Positions 1,116-45,324 of a DNA stretch of 64,000 bases are shown here, piece by piece; the stretch's first letter is position 1; each line of letters starts with the position of its first letter. This DNA comes from Diphasiastrum complanatum (taxonomy: Eukaryota > Streptophyta > Lycopodiopsida > Lycopodiales > Lycopodiaceae): the NCBI GenBank assembly GCA_029204225.1, contig CM055100.1, positions 5,033,512-5,097,511 of the forward strand, given 5' to 3'. A program made the translations under genes and the position numbers. Under the pieces are notes generated by a model. That model had not been told where the DNA came from and ran no database searches. It worked only from the letters and a program-made list of their open reading frames with translations.

Positions 1116-1845
1116 GATGATTGTGGTTCCTCTCCCTTACATCGCTTAATCATATTCGTCATTCTAGTTGTTGCGATTGTTCTGAAGTGGCCGGGATGTC
1201 TGCCCACTTCCTTTTGGGGGGATTTTTACTTTCGTTAGTTGTAGACAGATCGTGGTTTGTAGTGTCTTCTGGCATCTGGCTTTGGACTCCCGGTTTCTGC
1301 TTGCAACGTTTGCCTCGAAACCAAGCATAGAGTAAGGACACAAAAAATTTGCAAACAAAAGGCGCTTAAAATCGATACCAAAATTGAATATCGATTTCGA
1401 ATGCAGGTTTACACAACAAGAAAAAAAAAAAAAACAAGGTTCGCGCTCGAAAGCGATATCGGAGATATCGCGGTATCAATCTCGAGCGCAGGGGGCGATG
1501 GTGAATACGAGAAGGCAAATAGACACGCTTGAGAGCGATATTGGGAGGAAACAAAAAAAAATTTGTGATGAAAATTGAAAATTCCGTGGAGGTATTTATA
1601 ATTTTTTTTTGCACGTGTGAAAAACAGCCCGGGACACATGGCATCCCTTTGTCAATGATGAGAGTGTGTGTAATCCAATTTGTATAAAGATGAACTCTAT
1701 TACACACACCCACAAAATAGCGAGGAGCCATATCAAAAAAATACTGGAACTCTTTCCAGTACCAGGTGCAACAGCCTATACGATTCTCAAAATGATTGAT
1801 GCACATGTAAAAATTTTAGAATATCGGTTCGACGCACGCGCTTTT
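1116..1845. other. Unassigned DNA left of the TRIM
   Basis: No gene found. A piece near 1441-1550 has several copies of a GAGAGCGATAT-like word, and the bases just left of the TRIM (near 1818-1838, TATCGGTTCGACGCACGCG) partly resemble DNA on its right (near 2293-2310). This may be the intron of the host gene whose last exons start at 2415. Confidence 0.4.
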
Positions 1846-1998
1846 TGTTAGAAAGTGTCAAGGCTATAACCCTTGCACAACACTCCTGGAACACAAATGG
1901 ACGGGTAGCTCAGTGGTAGAGCAGCCCACCGGAATGGGGGAGGTCCTAGGTTCAATCCCTAGCCCGACCACACACACCAAGTGTAAAAACTTTTCACA
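1846..1998 (+). repeat. 5' LTR of the TRIM
   Basis: This 153-bp LTR begins TGTTAGAAAG and ends CTTTTCACA. It contains the tRNA-like segment 1899-1970 and is abutted by the primer site at 1999. Compared with the 3' LTR it differs at four positions (about 2.6 percent), suggesting an old but not ancient insertion. Confidence 0.92.
1899..1970 (+). ncRNA. tRNA-like sequence inside 5' LTR of the TRIM
   Basis: The segment has a near-complete acceptor stem (GGACGGG against CCCGACC, one mismatch), D arm GCTC/GAGC, and T arm CTAGG-TTCAATC-CCTAG with a perfect stem. A box TAGCTCAGTGG and B box GGTTCAATCCC fit the Pol III consensus. The anticodon arm is abnormal: the stem has a mismatch and the loop CCGGAA lacks the invariant U33, so no usable anticodon can be assigned. 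I read it as a tRNA-derived internal promoter rather than a working tRNA gene. Confidence 0.85.
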
Positions 1999-2011
1999 TG
2001 GTATCAGAGCC
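1999..2011 (+). other. Primer-binding site of the TRIM
   Basis: TGGTATCAGAGCC follows the 5' LTR with no gap. It is the usual primer site of plant Ty1/copia elements, complementary to the 3' end of initiator tRNA-Met. Confidence 0.92.
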
Positions 2012-2061
2012 ATGGTTGTGGGTGTGGTCTAGGTGGGCGGTAGCTAAAAGGGCTATGCCTT

Positions 2062-2070
2062 GAGGGGGAG
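2062..2070 (+). other. Polypurine tract of the TRIM
   Basis: GAGGGGGAG lies immediately before the 3' LTR, where plus-strand synthesis is primed. Confidence 0.88.
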
Positions 2071-2223
2071 TGTTAGAAAGTGTCAAGGCTATAGCCCTTG
2101 CACAACACTCCTGGAACACAAATGGATGGGTAGCTCAGTGGTAGAGCACCCCACCGGAATGGGGGAGGTCCTAGGTTCAATCCCTAGCCTGACCACACAC
2201 ACCAAGTGTAAAAACTTTTCACA
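2071..2223 (+). repeat. 3' LTR of the TRIM
   Basis: This 153-bp LTR has the same length as the 5' LTR. It is followed by CTTTT, the right-hand copy of the target duplication. Confidence 0.92.
2124..2195 (+). ncRNA. tRNA-like sequence inside 3' LTR of the TRIM
   Basis: This is the second copy of the tRNA-like segment, with intact A and B boxes and the same perfect T-arm stem. Here the anticodon stem is fully paired (CCCCA/TGGGG), but the acceptor stem has lost pairs (GGATGGG against CCTGACC). The 6-nt anticodon loop again lacks U33. Confidence 0.83.
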
Positions 2224-2414
2224 CTTTTAGTGTTTGTAGATTTTCATTTCACATCATGTGCGCTAATCCAATATCTCATCAATATTTTTTTTATATCGAT
2301 TTGACGCGTGCTTGTTGCCTTTGTAGATTTTAATATCATCTCGTGCGTGTTGATTTGGTATTGCATAAATTTAGGATTTTGTTACTAACTTTTGTATATA
2401 TCTGAATACTGCAG

Positions 2415-43845: not shown

Positions 43846-44643
43846 TTGTGCATTTAAAAGTTGTAAATATTATTCTCTAGTATGTACAAACTCGAGCTAC
43901 ATGACATGCACAATGTCTAGATGGTCATATTTGAACTATATTCACTTTGTTCCATTGTATATATCAAAGGTATGTGAATTCAACACATGAACCTGAAGAA
44001 TAGGGTGAGTTTAAGTTAGGTAGATCTAGATTTGATGACATGCATAAAACTAGATGACATGCAAAATCAGTTAGATTGCATGCAACATGCAAGTCAGTAT
44101 ACATGTTCTACACATGTCCAAGTCATCTAGGGAAGTCACATGCAAGACATGCAAATTGACATTTGGACAAAGTAGGTAGGAGTTAGGTGCAATTTCAGCA
44201 TGCAAGCTGTTAGGTGTCAATATGGTAATAGTTTACACTCGATTAGGTGTAGGAAATGCATTGAATGCAAGGAGTACCACGAATTTTGGCTCTCCTATAT
44301 ATGTACATATCATTCTCATTTATATCTAATGATGAATCAAGCTTTGGTAATGTCATAATGTCAAAATTGGATCTCATGCTATTTTGCTTGTTTTGATATC
44401 CTCTCTCTAACTCGAGTAGAAGGCATTCTTCATACATGTTTCTTGGTTATGCATTATCTCTATTTGTGAGTAATTATTATTACTTTGATATGTAGCATTC
44501 TAGATTGTGCTCTAGCCTCAGATCTATTGGTAGATTGCAGAATTGCTCTTCAGATGATCTGTGTGCCACCACAAAGCATGGTCAAGATCATTCACACATT
44601 TGTTGTGGTTCCCCACATGTGTGAAGTTGCTGGATTTTTCACA
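43846..44643 (+). repeat. 5' LTR of copia element G (left end unresolved)
   Basis: The right end TTTTTCACA abuts the primer site at 44644. A TATA-like CTATATATGTACATATC lies near 44296. TGTGAATTCAACACATG near 43975 is a possible start, but nothing else supports it. It contains a CACATGTGTGAAG word. Confidence 0.55.
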
Positions 44644-44661
44644 TGGTATCAGAGCCATACC
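44644..44661 (+). other. Primer-binding site of copia G
   Basis: TGGTATCAGAGCCATACC directly after an LTR-like end: tRNA-iMet-type copia site. Confidence 0.88.
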
Positions 44662-45324
44662 ATGCTTTGGATGCAACCAACATCAGCTGTATGAAAATTT
44701 TTCTGTCAATTCAAGCTAGGAATTGTTTAGCAGTGTTTTGCTATCTTTTCTTGAACAGTATTTTGGTGAATGAGGTTAGAACTGATATTTTCAGTCCAGG
44801 ACAGAGGATGTACAGAATTCAGACTTTTCACACGTGTGAAAAACCAGAATACATCATTTGACTCTATCTCCTCTATGTTAGATCCAAAGATACTGACATT
44901 ATAGCTTGTTGGAAAGCTAGAAGAGTCCTCTTTCCATTGCAATTGGTTTCAATTAATTATGATGTTCCTAGTAGGAGTTATGATCTCTTAAAGAGGGTAG
45001 GGAGAGACCCAAAACCCGAGTGGACACTTTTGGTTTGAATATATTGCATGCATGATTCATCATTCACAGTTTTGGTACTCAATCTAAGATAGAATTGGAT
45101 AAGACAAATTTTTGTTGTCATAGACACATGATTCACACAAAGTGTTGTGTTTTGAGTTGAATGTGTGTTTATTGAGTGTGTTTCATTCATTTGAAACTCG
45201 TGGGAAAATTTGACATCCGAATTGTAAGTGCTTCATCAGTTGATAGAGGCTAGATCCAAATTCAAGTTGATTGATTTTTTGTTGTGAGCAAGATCTCTCT
45301 GATCAAGAACTAGACATGGTCATT
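44662..45324 (+). other. Leader of copia G, gag to integrase deleted
   Basis: No coding frame. An 18-bp perfect palindrome TTTTCACACGTGTGAAAA lies at 44825-44842. At about 45325 the sequence passes straight into RT, so gag, protease and integrase (about 3 kb) are absent. Confidence 0.6.

Follow-up and report, generated by a model that had tools for sequence, protein, structure and literature searches.

A Helenus-type TRIM with a tRNA-like module in its LTRs in Diphasiastrum complanatum, with copies joined to copia retrotransposons

The window, a 64,000-nucleotide stretch of the genome of Diphasiastrum complanatum, holds a complete LTR element of 378 bp at 1846-2223, and both of its LTRs carry a tRNA-like module. 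Many copies of the element occur in the source genome, where a second family shares the module, and several copies stand joined to copia retrotransposons of two families, which we call X and Y. We consider it likely that the element belongs to a family of Helenus-type TRIMs that is transcribed by Pol III and is copied and inserted by copia X, copia Y or their close kin.

The window element and its tRNA-like module

An initial annotation had described a complete 378-bp TRIM with a perfect target duplication, a copia-type primer site and a polypurine tract, and its coordinates proved exact. The LTR, internal part and LTR measure 153, 72 and 153 bp, the primer binding site starts at 1999, the polypurine tract extends up to 2070, and CTTTT stands on both sides:

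1841..1845, + strand: target site duplication (TSD) CTTTT, left, matching the right copy exactly
1846..1998, + strand: 5' LTR, 153 bp, TGTTAG...TTTTCACA, 97.4% identity to the 3' LTR
1999..2070, + strand: internal part, 72 bp, between the LTRs
1999..2012, + strand: primer binding site TGGTATCAGAGCCA, directly after the 5' LTR
2060..2070, + strand: polypurine tract TTGAGGGGGAG, ending directly before the 3' LTR
2071..2223, + strand: 3' LTR, 153 bp, paired with the 5' LTR
2224..2228, + strand: target site duplication CTTTT, right, matching the left copy

The element thus has the features of a TRIM: two LTRs, a length below 1000 bp, a primer binding site and a polypurine tract, and a non-coding sequence in that no listed open reading frame of at least 150 aa overlaps it. 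We take its primer binding site to match initiator tRNA-Met (iMet-type). The two LTRs differ at 4 of 153 sites (LTR positions 24, 57, 79 and 120); as read from the LTR alignment, those at 57 and 120 exchange C and T within CpG sites and fall in the acceptor stem of the tRNA-like module. This copy lies in duplicated sequence, since its TSD and flanks recur at three other places (G000 C9:4581181, C9:4856589 and C1011:60227), which represent either a segmental duplication or a separate haplotype contig.

The tRNA-like fold proposed for each 153-bp LTR was recovered both by covariance search, with scores above the Rfam RF00005 gathering cut-off of 29 bits, and by ARAGORN. The module and the putative promoter features around it are as follows:

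1864..1869, + strand: TATA-like CTATAA, about 34 nt before the module; putative upstream Pol III element
1894..1896, + strand: CAA triplet, 5 nt before the module; candidate start site
1899..1970, + strand: tRNA-like module of the 5' LTR (Rfam RF00005, 49.9 bits; ARAGORN)
1906..1916, + strand: A box TAGCTCAGTGG, 5' LTR
1949..1959, + strand: B box GGTTCAATCCC, 5' LTR
1991..1994, + strand: TTTT; putative weak Pol III terminator
2124..2195, + strand: tRNA-like module of the 3' LTR (Rfam RF00005, 52.4 bits; ARAGORN)
2131..2141, + strand: A box, 3' LTR, transferred from LTR positions
2174..2184, + strand: B box, 3' LTR, transferred from LTR positions

ARAGORN called a tRNA in both window LTRs and in the LTR sequence of each of the two families described below, whereas none of 1000 dinucleotide-preserving shuffles per family gave a call (those of family 1, the window's family, were built from its majority LTR sequence). 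The highest Rfam tRNA score within family 1 is 61.4 bits. No 5S rRNA of the Cassandra kind was detected, as only the tRNA model RF00005 attains its gathering score in the window. The boxes had been called consensus, which is slightly generous: the A box conforms to the usual pattern, whereas the B box departs once from the textbook GGTTCRANTCC. The majority sequence of the family folds with a six-base anticodon loop that is without U33; the 5' LTR of the window has a broken first anticodon-stem pair. We found no parent tRNA or SINE with the 72-nt module as query: the best 40 of 846 candidates were all 97–100% identical, and those that could be recognised were family 1. Viral contigs scanned with part of the module gave 0 matches.

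Family copies and a second family with the same module

We searched the source genome (1.74 Gb in 5176 contigs) for further copies. The family 1 search returned 43 matches at 40 places with 93–100% identity (the best 40 of 706 candidates), and a second query, which combined U5, the internal part and U3 but left out the module, added 17 new places (best 40 of 541 candidates). Merged on common flanks, the 57 places form 42 independent loci, a sample biased towards the query because the best-scoring candidates alone were scored. In the copies examined the module is intrinsic to the LTR. At the first 40 places 83/83 LTR matches span it, with internal gaps of at most 6 bases, and at the 17 places found with the module-less query U3 and U5 of the same LTR always flank module sequence, several LTRs being cut off within the module. 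The initial annotation had allowed that the module might be absent from most LTRs, or that no other LTR-internal-LTR copies might exist. Neither proved true among these best-scoring copies: the 83 matches span the module, the elements at the 17 further places carry it entire or truncated, and the 42 independent loci bear out a complete, multi-copy element.

Both outer LTR ends are present in 30 loci, and 20 of these are flanked by an exact 5-bp TSD, including one (L030) whose TSD carries little meaning because it sits inside a CT repeat. Of the ten without an exact TSD, L056 has a 4-bp repeat and L067 matches at 4 of 5 bases. We assign the window element to the Helenus-type TRIMs because of these 5-bp TSDs and the presence of the module in the LTRs examined. 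Tandem arrays also occur: L037 and L043/L044 have three LTRs, L082 has six in the same direction and one inverted, and L087 has six LTR matches with a single TSD around the whole array. As a separate observation, CTTTT is the target repeat at four independent loci (window 1841-1845, L041, L045 and L083, of which L041 is without the first LTR bases), and it spells the same letters as the T4 stretch at the LTR end; a target preference is possible.

The second family emerged from a pattern of B box, N25-55 and a 12-base primer site, which is shared among families and matches the genome 697 times, against 2 for the reversed pattern. By our own tally of 100 listed matches, which stand in contig order and are not a random sample, 79 belong to family 2, 19 to the window's family and 2 to others; family 2 is more abundant than family 1. 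Five places (L089-L093) were fetched, among them:

G000 C2:78731253-78731835: family 2 copy

In these five places the LTR is 144 bp and the internal part 116 bp, the primer site is the same as in family 1, and the polypurine tract consists of G's. An exact TSD is present in two of the five, one of them enclosing an array (L089). The middle LTR of that array is missing most of the tRNA-like module, so module-less LTRs do exist. L092 has 12 bases of the primer site after its 3' LTR (623-634) and is without a TSD. TACCA, the end of a tRNA with its CCA, stands before an intact family 2 LTR start in 4 genome matches. Among its one-base variants at that position (our own tally of 25 rows) TAACA occurs 8 times, TATCA 3 times, four others once each and the rest not at all; TAACA represents an LTR end abutting an LTR start.

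When the two families are aligned, the module stands apart from the rest of the LTR. Its two versions agree at 60 of the 72 positions aligned (83%), with a single gap of 1 nt, and give z = 13.7, while U3 and U5 give z = 2.5 and 2.2; the internal part gives z = 7.1, mainly through the primer site and polypurine tract (all z values against 500 shuffles). A BLAST comparison of the family 2 LTR with the window at 1e-6 yields a match confined to the module. At most of the places listed, the match from B box to primer site measures 62 bases for one family and 63 for the other. Retention of the module between families whose U3 and U5 have diverged fits selection on the module, but by our count from the alignment the A box is identical at 11/11 positions and the B box at only 8/11. 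This conservation is the strongest indication that the module is important; the capture of one source twice would produce the same pattern.

Within family 1 the picture is different at the level of the boxes, where the initial annotation had proposed selection on the promoter. We compared 86 near-full LTRs, a count that by itself is no proof of a universal module because shorter matches were left out. Outside CpG sites, substitutions amount to 3.1% for the A box and 1.9% for the B box; the corresponding rates are 2.15% for U3 and 1.8% for U5. In these 86 LTRs the boxes are therefore no better conserved than the rest of the LTR, and box-level selection was not seen in family 1. The pattern is as neutral decay after insertion would give.

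Composite insertions with copia families X and Y

Among the 42 loci, six show Helenus joined to a copia element, with the joint at an LTR terminus or the primer site or next to one of these: L013, L014 (duplicate L020), L024, L034, L062 and L029. As composites these copies are labelled L049, L050/L088, L048/L097, L007/L095, L051/L094 and L062. We derived families X and Y from sequence flanking these same Helenus copies, which had no TSD, and afterwards looked for them in every locus retrieved up to that point; the count of six is therefore not blind and would miss fusions with other families. Family X has a 702-bp LTR (TGTGAAG...CTTTCACA). The LTR of family Y is about 680 bp long, and in L048 an open frame of Y contains copia-type gag, zinc knuckle and integrase domains. 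No reverse transcriptase domain was detected in the X frame of L050, the single X frame scanned, and this X copy may therefore itself be non-autonomous.

The joints often include a piece of the primer site. In L013 and L034 this piece is TGATACCA, and in L014 it is TGGTA, with X lacking its first base or two. L024 has a 38-base piece with TGGTATCAGAGCC at its start and a purine run at its end. In L029 the ends of Y and of the Helenus U5 are joined with a few bases lost, and a polypurine-tract remnant lies on the other side; in L062 Helenus directly abuts the start of the Y LTR.

If a joined molecule had been inserted as one, the 5-bp repeat must enclose the whole composite. For L048 (L024 plus Y) AATTA was predicted beforehand and was found directly past the far end of Y. 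For L014 plus X the prediction was AGCCG and AGCCA was found (4/5). L049 (L034 plus the X LTR) has AGACA on both sides, as seen on inspection. In L050/L088 (L013 plus X) the repeat first predicted, AACAG, was wrong; GGATC was found instead, left of X and, after a 4-nt filler, right of Helenus, and in L050 an interrupted copia frame becomes continuous once the flanks are rejoined. L051 (L029 plus Y) has a 4/5 repeat after a 6-nt filler, seen afterwards. Of the five composites tested, three thus have exact TSDs (L048, L049 and L050) and two have near ones (4/5; L014 and L051). In L062 the Y end was not found at the predicted place.

The simplest reading suggested by these sequences is that Helenus and copia cDNAs were joined end to end before integration, at times with primer-derived ends attached. 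Together with the copia-type primer site and the 5-bp TSDs, this physical link makes X and Y candidate helpers of Helenus. Joining is no proof of co-packaging, because ligation in the nucleus could also link cDNAs that come from different particles. We advance only tentatively, at somewhat less than an even chance, the fuller proposal that copia X and Y share their particles with a TRIM lineage driven by Pol III, which is copied there, and that cDNAs of both kinds become linked through their LTR ends, in many cases with a tRNA-primer-derived end still present, and are inserted as one molecule. If this is true, the composites would physically document which element helps a TRIM with a tRNA promoter, and would be a route to the helpers of other TRIMs, such as Cassandra. 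Composite insertions offer a sequence-only means of naming a TRIM helper, and are the part of this work most worth following.

Transcription, alternative explanations and related elements

Several features near the module are consistent with Pol III transcription of the family. CTATAG occupies the TATA-like site in 81/86 family 1 LTRs, and CAA, a frequent transcription start before plant tRNA genes, lies at -5 relative to the module in family 1 and at -6 in family 2. TTTT is the single run of at least four T's in the family 1 LTR and internal part; it lies four bases before the primer site, and CTTTT is kept in 74/86 LTRs. In the part of a survey of flowering-plant tRNA genes drawn on here, CAA is found within 10 bases upstream in 36–45%, a TATA box in 22–32% and a poly(T) signal in 67–72% (PMC11700998); at such frequencies CAA, TATA and the T run fit Pol III but are not telling alone. 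No TTTT was found in the family 2 LTR, so a shared terminator is not a rule, and we rejected TTTT as a general Pol III terminator. In family 1 it precedes the primer site and could stop transcripts early; Pol III, starting in the 5' LTR, would need to read through this weak T4.

We infer the following sequence of events. The tRNA-derived module in the 5' LTR would recruit Pol III, which would start just upstream of it, probably at the CAA about 5 nt before. The RNA would cross the primer site and internal part and end in or beyond the 3' LTR. It would then be packaged and copied by proteins that copia retrotransposons of families X, Y or close kin, themselves with primer sites of the iMet type, supply, and whose integrase would insert the cDNA with 5-bp duplications.

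Other explanations were considered for the module and for the composites. The tRNA-like part could be a passenger, a SINE or tRNA piece that landed in an LTR and was then amplified, with transcription by Pol II as in ordinary TRIMs. Boxes that are no more conserved than the rest of family 1, and the TATA-like CTATAG in U3, would fit a passenger; the 83% identity of the module with its one 1-nt gap across families with diverged U3 and U5, and the nearly constant distance to the primer site (62 against 63 bases in most listed places), argue the other way, although each would also follow from a common source captured twice. We judge a passenger rather unlikely. A host tRNA gene that functions, or did so until recently, with the LTRs incidental, would agree with Rfam scores of up to 61.4 bits, but the family 1 majority sequence has a six-base anticodon loop without U33 and the module lies within LTR-internal-LTR units in the copies inspected, which makes such a gene extremely improbable.

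The composites, for their part, might have arisen after integration, by insertion of Helenus beside resident X or Y copies or by recombination with them. X and Y may be abundant, and L058 contains a truncated Helenus within an X LTR remnant, which would fit such events. However, the joints coincide with LTR termini or lie next to them, and fragments of the primer site are frequent there; in L048, L049 and L050 the exact 5-bp repeat encloses the composite and not Helenus alone. A post-integration origin seems to us quite improbable.

Helenus is defined as a TRIM with tRNA-like sequence in its LTRs (Kojima 2024, PMC10886601). The initial annotation had called reported cases few. That is right for plants, Selaginella moellendorffii being the sole plant host in the sections of that paper drawn on here, but not overall, since 113 families are described from rust fungi (PMC10886601). 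The same sections state that the Pol III function of Helenus was not validated and name no partner for the plant element; the helper argument there rests on primer-site similarity and, in one fungal case, similarity of the internal part, and Cassandra is given as showing no indication of a helper (PMC10886601). Our searches of the open-access literature found no further Helenus papers, and we met no report of helper composites in searches that were aimed at other questions.

Helenus-1_SMo shares with the window element a tRNA-like sequence in both LTRs, a primer binding site and polypurine tract, and the 5-bp TSD that is a feature of plant and fungal Helenus (PMC10886601). Compared by description and not by sequence, its LTR and internal part are 120 and 85 bp, against 153 and 72 bp here (PMC10886601). 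The source genome differs from what is reported for Helenus-1_SMo in having a second family and copia composites. Tandem arrays are also described for one fish Helenus family (PMC10886601) and for Cassandra (PMC7215508). Cassandra, also a TRIM of plants, likewise has a Pol III promoter of small-RNA origin in its LTR, and its published search pattern has the same primer site, TGGTATCAGAGC (PMC7215508), but its LTR carries 5S rRNA where the window LTR carries the tRNA-like module. Ajax too is a TRIM with a small-RNA promoter in its LTR; it differs in being 5S-derived and is described from two nemertean worms (PMC10886601). tRNA-derived SINEs have A and B boxes in a tRNA-like head but are without LTRs, primer binding site and polypurine tract, and are mobilised by non-LTR retrotransposons. 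A genome that combines two Helenus families with tandem arrays and numerous intact insertions would allow the Pol III question to be tested in a plant.

Elsewhere in the window, 44208-44658 contains the apparent end of another copia-type LTR (TGTTAGGTGTC...TTTTTCACA), which has the same primer site as the TRIM and 23 bases in common with it across the LTR-PBS joint. The genes of the window include copia and other retrotransposon genes and one with DUF7815, presumably a plant domain. Finally, an 18-bp palindrome, TTTTCACACGTGTGAAAA, lies at 44825-44842 and at six other places, giving seven sites with at most 3 mismatches against 0.07 expected; some of these sites fall within duplicated repeats.
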